Source: an uncultured Prevotella sp. (GTDB taxonomy: Bacteria; Bacteroidota; Bacteroidia; Bacteroidales; Bacteroidaceae). From it: a stretch of DNA of 64,000 nucleotides. Positions 51,714-56,754 of the stretch are shown in pieces. The number at the start of each line of letters is the position of its first letter. The first letter of the stretch is position 1. The notes beneath the pieces are model-generated. The model saw only the letters and a list, made by a program, of their open reading frames with translations, did no database searches and was not told where the DNA came from. A program made the position numbers and the translations under genes. Where the stretch lies: assembly GCA_902800365.1 (NCBI GenBank), contig CADCEF010000013.1, positions 36,658-100,657 of the forward strand, given 5' to 3'.

Positions 51714-54146
51714 ATGATGAGACCAAGCTATTTTAACAGCGTTAGAGACCGCAGGGCTAAAACCCTAACCCCTGCGGCGCTCAGCGCCTTACAGACCCGA
51801 AAGGCAACCATCGATGGTATGGCGGAGATTGCAAAGCTGCAGGGTGAGGGTAAGGACATACGTCCGGGCAAGGAAATGCTGAGTGTGATAACCTGGGGAG
51901 CACGTTATAACGACGGCGACCCGCGAGGTACAGAGGGAGCAAAACCTACGGGACTGTTCTTCATAGACTGCGACCACCTGAAGGAACCGCCACGCGAAGT
52001 ATATGAACGCCTGATGACGGCCAGCAGCATAGCAGATGAGGTTCGCCGAAAGGCTGTGGCTGATGTTATGAAGCAGCACACCAAAGGTGCACATATAACG
52101 CCCAGTGGCGAGGGACTGAGACTCATTCTCGTTAAGTTGTTGCCCGATAAGGACAACGAGGCAAACATCATGGCCTTTAAGCAGATGCTGGCTGCCGACC
52201 CTGCCATCGAAACGGTTGATGAGAAAGTAAAGGACATAGGCCACCCAAGTTATGTGCCGAGTCAGGACTATTGGATATTTTTTGATAATGATATGCTGAA
52301 TGAAGATGAAAAAGAAAATGATGCAACTATTGGTAAGGACGGTACTGCACTGCAGAAAGCGACAAGCGTCGCAAACCTCATTGGCGAAATCGCAACAGCC
52401 GCAGGAGCCGAAACCGTTCAAACTCAGGACGAGCTACGGGGAGATTATCGACTTCGACTGAGCTATGATGCAGAGGGTTTTCCCATCGGCATGAACGGCA
52501 AGCGACTGCAGACGGAGTACCGCGGTCATCAACTGACAGAAATTCGCGACAACATTGTTACGCTGATGGGCGGGCAGCCAGCCATAGGCGACCGCAATAT
52601 GCGAACTTATAAAGTTCTGTCGGCAATGGCACCCATCGTAGACTACAAGGAAGAGGTGCTGCGCACGCTGATTCCTTATTGGGGACTGACTTGGGACGAG
52701 GCAGAACCGATAGCTAAAAGTGCTGCCAAACGCCGACCTTCGGAGAAGTTGCCTTACCTGCTGTGGAAGGTGCTACGCGAGATGGGTATAGACGATGCCT
52801 CTATGCAGGTGGACGAAGACGATGAGGATTTTGAGAACATCGAAGAACTGCAAGAAGATACTGGCCCTTCGCGAGACTCAATGCCGCCACTGGCGCCAGT
52901 GTTCAAACAGTGGGTGGGGCGTGCGCCGAAGGACTACCTGGAGATGATCTACTTCTCGGTGCTGTTCAGTATGTCTTGTCTGGCGTCAAAGCTACGTGCG
53001 CGCTATCTTGACGGGCGAATCCACTCACCATCGTTGTTCGTCACCGTAGAAGGAACACCAGGCTCAGGAAAATCGTGGGCGTGCGATGTGTGCGATATGC
53101 TGCTGGAACCCATGGATCAGGATGACCTGAAGGGACAGGAAAAACAGTTGGAATATGAACGTGCACTGAAGCTCAGTCGCAACTCGAAGAAACAACCCGA
53201 AGACCCGATGGTGATTCAGCGCAGGCTGCCAGCAACCGTCTCGGTGACAGCTTTCCTAAAGCAGAACTTCCAGAATAAGGGACTACACAGCGTAACTATA
53301 TGCCCCGAGGTAGATACTATGGTGAAGCAGCACAATCGCGGATCGTGGGGACAACTCTCTGACATTTACCGACTGGCTTATGAGAACCAGGTGGCCTCGC
53401 AGAAATTCATGTCGGAGAACTCGTTCTCGGGTACTGCAAAGGTGTTCTACAACTTGCTGGTTACTGGAACTCCTCAATCGATGGCCAAGTTCTTCAGGAA
53501 TGTTGAAGACGGACTGGTTACGCGTACAATCCCCATCGTGCTGCCCGATCAATTCGGTGCCCGTAATCCACAGTGGAAACCTTGGACGGCATTGCAGCGA
53601 AAGGTAATCAACGATACCATCAGTCGCGTGTATCATGCACTGTCGATGGACGAAGAGGGCAATGTGGCCGAGGAGCACATGATGCAGCTCGACTGGCTGA
53701 ACAAAGCGCTTGATGAGTGGCTGGAGGAGCAGCGATTGAAGGCCATTAAGGAAATGTCTCGTTCGCGCGACCAGTATCGTCGCCGAGCCGCCAACGATGG
53801 ATTCCGTGCAGGAATGGTTGTCTATTATCTGCTGGGAGAGAAACCTACTGCCGAGGTGAAACGTAAGACGATAGCCAACGCTCTGTATGTAGCCACCTAC
53901 GCCGTAGAATCGCTGATAGCCAAGTATGGTCGCGAGACTGAGGAAACGCTTGTGGGCAAAGACCGCCGCCCTGCAAAGAGTATTATATTGTTTGACTTGA
54001 TGCCCGAAGAGTTCAGTCGTGATCAACTGAAACAGAAGATGCAGGAACTGAAGGTGCTATCCAAACTGCGCGACGTAGTATGGCGCTGGTCAAAGTCTGG
54101 TCTTATAGAAGTGATGCCCGACGGTACTATCCGCAAAGCGTCTTAA
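51714..54146 (+). CDS. VirE-N/DUF3987 primase-helicase-like protein
   Basis: This 810-residue protein has an N-terminal VirE-type/BT4734-like region (about 50-200) with the nucleotide-polymerase-like FFIDCDHLK and [14 protein letters not shown] motifs of primase-polymerase-related proteins. The C-terminal DUF3987 ATPase region (about 400-720) has the Walker [14 protein letters not shown]. The later [26 protein letters not shown] contains a probable Walker B end. Such proteins occur in Bacteroidales phage-like and integrated elements and are thought to start or assist DNA replication. Two adjacent ATGs at 51714 and 51717 give equivalent starts. The stop codon lies inside a 9-bp repeat array. 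Confidence 0.82.
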
Positions 54147-54711: not shown

Positions 54712-56667
54712 CTATCCCTCGAAAACATAGCCCAGGCCGGGGCGGCTTGCGATGTTCTGGGCGTAGCTGCCCAGTTTTTTGCGCAGGCGGGTGATGTTAA
54801 CATTTATCGTTCGGTCGGTCACGATGACATCGGGCCATACCGTGTCCATCAGCTGCTGGCGGGTGAGTACATGGTTGCGGTGGGAGAGAAGTTGGTAAAG
54901 CAGGTCGAACTCGGTACGCGTGAGGCTGATGGGCTGGCCGTCGATGGTAACCGTACGGCGATCGACATTCATCTTCAGGCTGTTGTAGTTCTGATAGCGT
55001 TTGCCCAATCGGGCCTCTACCACATTCATTACGTAATCGCCCAGCTTCTCGCAGTCGGCAACGATGTCGGTATAGAGCGTGCCCAGCGTATAACTGTAAG
55101 TGTGGCTGTTAACATCGCTAAGCGTCTCGGCCTTGATGTTGTCGCGCATGGTGTTGATGTCGTTCTCGATATCACGCGAGGCATCGACAGTCAGGTTTTC
55201 GCGACGGCCGTTCATCACAACCATCATTTGTGTCAAAGCCTCGTTAACCAGATGCTGCATATCGTGCAGACGGGTGTACTGGCTGGGGGTAAAGTCTTCA
55301 CGATTGTTGCGCAGATGCTTGATGGTACGGGCCATCTTGTAGCACGCATCGCCGATGGATTCCAACTCGCCAATCTGGCGGAACATAATGCGGATTTTAT
55401 TCTTTGTCTCGTCGGAAAGGTGGTCTTTGCCCACCTGTTCAAGATAGTTGGCTATCTCAATTTCCATATTGTCGGCGATGGTCTCGTAGTGTTCTATACG
55501 CTCAAACTGGCGCTCAAACTCCTTTTTGTCTTTCTCGTCCATTAGCGTGCGCGTCATACCAAACATGCGTTGCATGCGCTCGGCAAAATGGATAATCTCC
55601 TTTTGCGCCTGCAGAACAGATATTTCGGGGGTAGCCATCACGCCACCATCGATGAAATGAAGGGCAGCGTTGGGCTTGGCCTGCTGCTTGTTGGGCAGAA
55701 GGCGGCACACCAGGCGCTCCATCTGGGGGATAAAGCCGATGAGCAGAGCGGTGTTGAGAATGTTGAAACACGTATGGAACATGGCCAGCACTACCGACAG
55801 AAGCTCGGTTTGCCCGCCTATCGCCGGATGATAGCCAACGATGCTGCACACCATATCGACGAAAGGATAGAATACCGCCAGCACCCAAACCACACCGAAC
55901 ACATTGAACAGCAGATGGGCTAACGCCGCCCTGCGGGCTTCGATGCCTGCGCCGAGTGCTGCCAGATTGGCTGTGGCTGTTGTGCCGATGTTCTCGCCCA
56001 TCACCAAGGCTATGCCCATATAGATGGGCAGCACGCCTGTTGAGCAGAGCAGAATGGTGATGGCCATGACGGCTGCCGACGACTGGACGATGCAGGTGAT
56101 AAGCGTGCCTGCGGCAAGGAAGACGAATATGGTGAGATAGCTGCTGGTATCAAACGAGGCAAAGAATGCCACCACCTGGGCATTATGCTGAAGGTCCATA
56201 TCCTTACCAGCGCCACTCAACATGACGAGCGACCAGAAGAGAAATGCCAGTCCGAAAAGGAACTCGCCTGCATAACGGTGGCGCTTCTTGTAAATAAGCA
56301 CCATGCCCACCAGGAAGGCGGGAAACACCACCACGGTCAGGTTCAGATTGTAGCCCAGCGACATGATCCAAGCCGTAAGTGTAGTACCGATATTGGCACC
56401 CATGATAACCGAGATGGCCTGTGCCAACGTGAGCAGTCCGGCACTAACAAACGATACCGTCATAACCGTTGTGGCCGACGACGATTGTACGGCGCAAGTA
56501 ACAAAGGTGCCTGTAAGCATGCCGGTTAGTCGGTTGGTGGTCATTCGTCCAAGAATATGTCGTAAGCCCGATCCTGCCATCTTCTGTAGGGCGTCGCTCA
56601 TGGTTTTCATGCCATAGATGAGAAGTGCGAGCGAGCCTAAAAGTCTTAATACAATCTCTAATGTCAT
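54712..56667 (-). CDS. Na/Pi cotransporter-PhoU protein fused to a PhoB-type winged helix
   Basis: This 651-residue protein is read without a break. Residues about 1-330 are an NptA/SLC34-like Na+/phosphate transporter with the paired QSS motifs (VQSSSATTVMTV, VQSSAAVMAITI) and two GxNIGTT motifs (MGANIGTT, MGENIGTT). About 345-550 is a PhoU-like helical bundle (FERIEHYETIADNMEIEI, IGELESIGDACYKMAR, DCEKLGDYVMNV). Residues 564-651 are an OmpR/PhoB C-terminal DNA-binding domain: ISLTRTEFDLLYQLLSH, LTRQQLMDTVWPD, the recognition helix DRTINVNITRLRKKLG and the wing ending GLGYVF. The usual cotransporter ends before the third domain. Membrane-bound phosphate-responsive transcription control is inferred. 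Its promoter has Pho-box-like repeats. Confidence 0.9.
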   Translation of the reverse strand: MTLEIVLRLLGSLALLIYGMKTMSDALQKMAGSGLRHILGRMTTNRLTGMLTGTFVTCAVQSSSATTVMTVSFVSAGLLTLAQAISVIMGANIGTTLTAWIMSLGYNLNLTVVVFPAFLVGMVLIYKKRHRYAGEFLFGLAFLFWSLVMLSGAGKDMDLQHNAQVVAFFASFDTSSYLTIFVFLAAGTLITCIVQSSAAVMAITILLCSTGVLPIYMGIALVMGENIGTTATANLAALGAGIEARRAALAHLLFNVFGVVWVLAVFYPFVDMVCSIVGYHPAIGGQTELLSVVLAMFHTCFNILNTALLIGFIPQMERLVCRLLPNKQQAKPNAALHFIDGGVMATPEISVLQAQKEIIHFAERMQRMFGMTRTLMDEKDKKEFERQFERIEHYETIADNMEIEIANYLEQVGKDHLSDETKNKIRIMFRQIGELESIGDACYKMARTIKHLRNNREDFTPSQYTRLHDMQHLVNEALTQMMVVMNGRRENLTVDASRDIENDINTMRDNIKAETLSDVNSHTYSYTLGTLYTDIVADCEKLGDYVMNVVEARLGKRYQNYNSLKMNVDRRTVTIDGQPISLTRTEFDLLYQLLSHRNHVLTRQQLMDTVWPDVIVTDRTINVNITRLRKKLGSYAQNIASRPGLGYVFEG

Positions 56668-56689: not shown

Positions 56690-56754
56690 GGTTACAAAGA
56701 TAAATAAAAAGAGCATAGGTTGCAAATTATTAAGGTTACGTTTTGGTTACAAAT
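56690..56754 (-). promoter_or_regulatory. Pho-box-like direct repeats in the cotransporter promoter
   Basis: GGTTACG (56734-56740), TTTT, GGTTACA (56745-56751) form a 7-4-7 tandem repeat with an 11-bp period, the same geometry as the E. coli Pho box. Two further copies are GGTTGCAAA (56718-56726) and GGTTACAAA (56690-56698); the last overlaps the TATCTTTG -7 box. On the transcribed strand each copy reads TTTGTAACC or similar. Confidence 0.7.
56695..56702 (-). promoter_or_regulatory. -7 box for the cotransporter fusion gene
   Basis: The reverse strand reads TATCTTTG, 27 bp upstream of the ATG. Confidence 0.6.

Follow-up and report, generated by a model that had tools for sequence, protein, structure and literature searches.

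A predicted phosphate importer of Prevotella-like gut and rumen bacteria carries the DNA-binding half of PhoB as its tail and lies behind a putative Pho box

The window analysed here is a stretch of 64,000 nt from an uncultured Prevotella sp. (GCA_902800365.1, CADCEF010000013.1, positions 36,658–100,657 of the forward strand). On its reverse strand, a single frame of 651 codons with no internal stops encodes a Na/Pi cotransporter, a PhoU helical part and a PhoB-type winged helix in one chain (Table 1). All three domains (Na_Pi_cotrans, PhoU and Trans_reg_C) exceeded their own Pfam cut-offs: Na_Pi_cotrans scored 182.8 bits over two stretches, PhoU 30.1 bits against a cut-off of 23.5 (best stretch 468–551), and Trans_reg_C, at residues 577–649, 72.7 bits against 26.2. 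The NCBIfam cotransporter model TIGR00704 matched residues 5–326 at 212.2 bits, barely above its cut-off of 210.1, and both pairs of transporter motifs (QSSSATT/QSSAAV and GANIGTT/GENIGTT) are present in the translation. A sequence-only reading of the window had described one continuous 651-residue frame with transporter motifs, PhoU and a winged helix, and translation and Pfam confirmed it.

Table 1. Positions of the fused gene, its parts and its upstream elements, numbered from the first nucleotide of the window
Feature	Position	Strand	Basis
Fused gene, Na/Pi cotransporter–PhoU–PhoB-type winged helix (651 aa)	54712..56667	-	Translation, Pfam, NCBIfam, full-length relatives
Na/Pi cotransporter part, ~residues 1–330, two QSS and two NIGTT motifs	55678..56667	-	TIGR00704; Na_Pi_cotrans
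PhoU helical part, ~residues 340–555, limits estimated	55003..55650	-	PhoU profile; EARLG end in alignment
OmpR/PhoB winged-helix DNA-binding domain, ~residues 561–651, without receiver	54715..54987	-	Trans_reg_C; NF053854; invariant residues
Putative Pho box GTAACCAAAACGTAACC, a pair of half-sites at 11-bp spacing; the window's genome gave no other exact match to the pattern	56734..56750	-	
Presumed -7 type element TATCTTTG, TAnnTTTG, 32 bp past the Pho box	56695..56702	-	

Profile matches identify the tail as the predicted DNA-binding half of PhoB. Its best PhoB-type NCBIfam profile was NF053854 (Bacteroidota PhoB), of which only positions 131–225 of 225, the DNA-binding half, were matched; the receiver half is absent from the fused protein, and the score of 103 bits lies far below the full-length cut-off of 270 bits. 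Among the best 60 of 67 PDB matches, the tail aligned with OmpR/PhoB-type effector domains and the front with SLC34 phosphate transporters. Across 31 proteins of the window's own group of fusions (F1, below), W611, R627, R629, G644, G646 and Y647 of the winged helix were invariant and R619 nearly so. Because the median dN/dS of the winged helix was 0.093 (0.068 for the transporter–PhoU part; fused gene pairs with dS of 0.05–1, comprising 170 non-independent pairs out of 74 sequences), the tail is under strong purifying selection.

An unbroken full-length fusion was found in at least 18 of 200 genomes of the same genus, the window's own included, counted among the matches listed, so that fusions broken at contig ends would escape; one carrier (G117) is a single-contig genome that is 99% complete. 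Within the family, at least 37 of 399 genomes from seven genera encode the fusion, and in an order-wide sample of 295 genomes searched at E 1e-120 it appeared in the window's own genome only. In the genome collection, where 80 loci were kept from 156 relatives, 57 loci carry the fused frame with a full transporter part, and the fused frame of L093 is shortened; several of them lie on contigs that also belong to the 18 same-genus fusion genomes. Named strains with the fusion are Prevotella sp. P6B1, Xylanibacter ruminicola D31d, P. aff. ruminicola Tc2-24 and Prevotella sp. khp7. The concern that the fusion might be absent from all relatives, raised with the sequence-only reading, was answered by this search, in which it recurred. 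Since the unbroken fusion recurs across independent assemblies, sequencing or assembly error is excluded; an assembly or frameshift artefact, for which we found no point in favour, was rejected as having negligible probability, the same uninterrupted frame being present in named strains and in a single-contig genome as well. Prevotella-like gut and rumen bacteria thus carry, as judged from sequence, a predicted phosphate importer with the DNA-binding half of PhoB as its tail. Plasmid records matching the fused protein numbered 661, and the best 5 of these end at or before query residue 557. In the open-licence PMC literature we found no description of a Na/Pi cotransporter–PhoU–winged helix fusion.

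A conserved neighbourhood of the fused gene was considered and rejected: pflA/pflB accompany it in only 4 of 57 fused loci searched, the flanks of which differ in length. In the window, the gene is adjoined by an 810-codon frame with a DUF3987 match (51714–54146), which is absent from the 57 other fused loci searched and may belong to a mobile element. Elsewhere in the window, a tmRNA gene with the tag GNNEYALAA occupies positions 1038–1438.

Among unfused relatives, 23 importer genes with 64–72% identity are followed by phoB, encoding both receiver and winged helix, and mostly, where the locus extends far enough, by a short phoR of ~305 codons. Some of these nptA-phoB-phoR operons hold a tandem pair of importer genes; three with a short PhoR and two tandem importers (L109 7670–9256, L090 7625–9256 and L104 7751–9318) are the likely source of the fusion. 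The domain order of the fusion is the gene order of these operons, which encode the same importer family under the same box in three or four separate genes where the fusion has one. Because its nearest unfused relatives form such operons, the fusion resembles an nptA-phoB-phoR operon minus receiver and kinase. We infer, for the order of events, that the ancestral state was likely such an operon under a Pho box, comprising an importer with a PhoU domain, a response regulator and a short kinase, and that the PhoB receiver and the kinase would have been lost in the fusion. No phoB or phoR of the operon type was found beside fused loci, in flanks of varying length; three fused loci (L076, L083 and L108) lie near other, distant kinase or regulator genes, including a hybrid kinase gene that directly adjoins the fused gene of L083.

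In alignment, the junction joins the natural importer end (EARLG) to the start of the PhoB effector domain. The transport and PhoU parts are as complete as in NptA–PhoU cotransporters (TIGR00704), but in the unfused examples of this analysis the chain stops after PhoU, whereas the fusion continues into the winged helix. In a tree built from 100 rows of transporter parts, the fusions formed three groups: F1, to which the window belongs, neighbours the operon importers with an SH-aLRT of only 80; F2 stands next to an unfused tandem paralogue; and F3 is the third. Junction indels were absent from the 8 F1 and from 5 of the 6 F2 proteins aligned, the junction is two residues longer in the 4 F3 proteins aligned, and that of L228 is fourteen residues longer. 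Approximately unbiased (AU) tests rejected a single clade of all fused transporter parts (p = 0.0057) and a single F1+F2 clade (p = 0.017), on quick trees with groups chosen after viewing and beside a weak winged-helix tree (91 columns). The sequences would therefore be compatible with repeated fusion or with transporter parts having recombined onto a single fused gene, the latter being possible because the trees are quick, the winged-helix tree is weak and F1 shares its junction with 5 of 6 F2 proteins. Three other loci bear on this family: the window's genome also encodes an unfused importer of ~60% identity that lacks the box (L238, G000:C21:30779–32530); L240 (G095:C217) has phoB and a PhoR-type kinase gene near an opposite-strand importer paralogue (49% identity), with four GTAAC half-sites; and L239 (G071:C77), in a fusion genome, is a degenerate locus with fragments of an importer start and a PhoB-like winged helix (the latter without a Pfam match) near four GTAAC repeats, possibly what is left of a phoB locus since lost.

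The region singled out earlier as the promoter (56690–56754) contains both a Pho box and a TAnnTTTG element, TATCTTTG, which we take to be a Bacteroidota -7 type element. A third GTAACC at 56690–56695 (-), right behind the -7 element, may represent an additional half-site. New here is the fixed distance between box and promoter before fused genes: among genome-collection loci with at least 150 bp upstream, the box (GTAAC-N6-GTAAC) lies 32–33 bp before the -7 element in 48 of 56 fused genes. Of the other open frames in the fused loci that span 200 codons or more (331 in all), none had the box at this distance and two had it at any distance; these control frames were found mechanically on both strands, so that some may not be genes. 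The box at this distance was likewise found at none of 40 nptA loci without a linked winged helix, hand-chosen from the same-genus matches listed (20 from genomes without PhoB, 20 from genomes with PhoB elsewhere). Across the full set of fetched loci, after removal of duplicates and of 4 short ones, the box stood at the set distance in 56/63 F1, 6/7 F2 and 0/7 F3 genes, leaving 7 F1 genes and 1 F2 gene without it. By the same count, 17 of 22 operon importers had it (21 when 11-bp multiples were allowed), as did 10 of 58 unfused importers without an adjacent winged helix; nine of these ten belong to operon loci, lie beside phoB or come from genomes with PhoB over the cut-off, and the tenth is L106.

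Genome-wide scans point to GTAAC-N6-GTAAC as the putative Pho box of the Prevotella-like group. In 20 genomes with PhoB encoded elsewhere, the combined box and promoter site occurred in 17 (control 0), just before phoB in 8 and before pst in 4, with G133 having both and the remaining genomes matching neither position. Nearly all operon genomes had it (19 of 20), as against 2 of 20 genomes that have neither PhoB nor the fusion; among the latter 20, the reversed control pattern gave 6 matches in 5 genomes. Among fetched loci, 3 of 7 phoB loci and 5 of 13 pst loci had the box, the five being among the 8 pst loci from PhoB-elsewhere genomes; one of the five boxed pst loci (L263) has three half-sites and no matching -7 element.

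The combined site occurs in 15 of the 18 fusion genomes and stands at the fused gene in 13; G071 and G175 have it only elsewhere, G027 and G151 at other places as well as at the fused gene. The exact box pattern occurs exactly once in 14 of the 18, always upstream of the fused gene, which has a box with one mismatch in G119 and a variant box in G171; pattern scans found none upstream of the gene in G175 and G005. With one mismatch allowed, several of the 18 had further matches to the box alone, about as often as to the reversed control pattern. In the window's genome, the sole box and promoter site found is at the fused gene's own promoter, and no second site appeared at two mismatches and 32-bp spacing, in a scan of 8 genomes that recovered the own site in 6 and gave three weaker extra matches in three others. 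A large Pho regulon of the fused protein gained no support from these patterns, whose only site in the window's genome was its own promoter, though weaker or differently spaced sites may exist. Two recurrent sequences were seen in these scans: GTAATAATTCAGTAATAATTATTTTC before a -7 type element (G027:C52:2788, G151:C78:2248 and G178:C3:38916), and an identical 17-mer, GTTGCCAAATCGTAACC, possibly part of a repeat, present seven times in five genomes (G032:C8, C37 and C100; G034:C51; G119:C126; G151:C15; G188:C17).

The F3 lineage (genus g24; L222–L227, L236 and L237) has the GTAAC box in 0/7. Five of 8 F3 loci bear [AG]TTAAGATTnTGTTAYAAT upstream, and two more have the half element TGTTACAAT alone. 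Within this element, GTTACAAT is the reverse complement of ATTGTAAC; the element may be a turned Pho box. Recognition-helix residue 622 varied with a base of the box, N622 occurring with C in 44 rows and D622 with A in 22, against 1 and 7 exceptions respectively, among 74 scored rows of 79 distinct ones. On the tree, the three supported independent pairs gave one for, one against and one without a difference; the covariation is strong in raw counts and not independent of phylogeny.

PhoB itself is missing from most of the fusion genomes examined. Of the 200 genus genomes, 109 have a PhoB over the family cut-off; 2 of these are among the 18 with the fusion and 107 among the 182 without it (Fisher p = 1e-4), the two being the fragmented G073 and G171 (74% and 89% complete), which were also the only ones of the 18 with matches to a short PhoR query beyond E 1e-30. 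A further set of 68 entries was drawn from 44 of 58 fused loci (12 on contigs of the first 18 genomes being left out, plus L068 and L093) and 24 of 35 further family genomes; less seven duplicates from identical places, it gave 61 distinct fusion genomes, of which 8 have PhoB, G320 only once neighbouring pieces were added. PhoB over the cut-off is thus missing in 69 of 79 fusion genomes examined, the four named strains included. Its absence is not special to such genomes, as 75 of 182 without the fusion also lack it, and absence of a gene from any one genome is weak evidence because many of the genomes are incomplete. PstC passed its cut-off in 1/18 fusion, 3/20 operon, 1/20 no-PhoB and 8/20 PhoB-elsewhere genomes, and Pst loss was rejected as a mark of fusion genomes (1/18 vs 12/60, p = 0.28).

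These counts bear on whether a different response regulator binds the box, with the fused winged helix a leftover or acting elsewhere. Ten of the 79 fusion genomes do have PhoB, and other OmpR-type regulators exist, two further matches lying in the window's genome; yet with PhoB missing from the rest, no box at the set distance in the 40 nptA loci without a linked winged helix and a tail under purifying selection, we consider this quite improbable.

The reading we regard as probable, with moderate confidence, is that the fused protein would be a phosphate importer doubling as the transcription factor of its own gene, so that a one-component autoregulator in the membrane takes the place of PhoR–PhoB. 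Because a matching DNA site precedes its own gene, the importer probably controls that gene without the usual sensor kinase. The PhoB DNA-binding domain, presumably cytoplasmic, would follow the PhoU bundle after a short linker, and the kinase–receiver relay would be replaced by the transporter/PhoU part, which would sense phosphate status. When phosphate is scarce, the conformation of this part would free or pair the winged helices, two of which would bind the tandem Pho box and activate the gene; when phosphate is ample, they would be held off the DNA. A membrane-held factor requires a target near the membrane, which counts against the autoregulator. The PhoR–PhoB substitute proposed in the sequence-only reading, which would sense phosphate flux or occupancy, is partly supported, by the PhoB-half tail, the operon relatives, the rarity of PhoB in fusion genomes and the Pho box; its likely target is its own promoter rather than genes at large, because the only such box found in the window's genome sits there.

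Membrane-tethered regulators released through proteolysis are known, and they offer a precedent for a winged helix that is cleaved off, or made separately, to act as a soluble factor. In the window an ATG does sit where the tail begins; this methionine is not conserved, however, as several proteins in an alignment of 18 have leucine, valine or isoleucine in its place, and the absence of linker indels at the F1 and most F2 junctions argues for a held geometry, so that release as a soluble factor appears very unlikely.

The predicted domain make-up, an input and a DNA-binding output in one polypeptide without a receiver, fits a membrane one-component regulator. As with ToxR and CadC, a winged helix is joined to a membrane protein; in the ToxR family (PMC5936718), the winged helix is N-terminal, with one membrane helix and a periplasmic sensor, whereas that of the fusion is C-terminal, behind a many-helix transporter and PhoU, which places the protein outside the ToxR/CadC family and upholds, by translation and Pfam, the contrast noted in the sequence-only reading. 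According to the same source, CadC binds DNA as a full-length membrane regulator and reads lysine via LysP, a separate transporter that is merely a co-sensor, whereas the fusion has its transporter in the same chain. ChxR is described as an OmpR/PhoB protein that works without phosphorylation (PMC3960148, in part). Compared with PhoR–PhoB, the DNA-binding half is alike and box and promoter element are spaced as at phoB/pst genes, but the fusion has neither receiver nor kinase, carries its DNA-binding domain on the importer and has one target found in the window's genome. In the sections drawn on, a 2026 survey of PhoU counted the NptA PhoU domain and omitted Na_Pi_cotrans proteins from its PhoU sequence set (PMC13170248).

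For the sign of regulation, activation in phosphate scarcity is favoured by analogy, because the box distance matches that of phoB/pst promoters and pstC expression in B. fragilis needs PhoB, which binds the pstC promoter in gel-shift (PMC3547664, in part). The sign could be the reverse, because BF4351 of B. fragilis, listed as a Na-dependent phosphate transporter, falls PhoB-dependently in low phosphate, 101-fold in the wild type and not in a phoB mutant (PMC3547664 Table 2, in part). The fused winged helix would then lower its own gene from the box when the importer is busy or abundant, and feedback on a single target suits homeostasis; the position of the box upstream of the promoter element, as in genomes with a separate PhoB, and the PhoB requirement of pstC (PMC3547664) speak against such an autorepressor, which we judge unlikely, though worth keeping in view. 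Under the favoured autoregulator, we propose more tentatively, and at somewhat less than even chances, that the transport cycle of a solute importer directly drives a transcription factor in the same chain whose regulon is its own gene only, and that this arose more than once in one family by collapse of nptA-phoB-phoR, so that PhoU-type domains could pass a signal to a DNA-binding domain with no need of a kinase, a receiver or phosphate transfer.

How transporters and PhoU signal phosphate status to PhoR–PhoB is a long-standing open question. In the fusion, kinase and receiver are absent, and there is one chain and one known candidate site; the question can therefore be put to one protein and one promoter in a rumen bacterium that can be cultured. 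The family also offers a clear evolutionary case of a two-component operon that has apparently collapsed into a one-component regulator.
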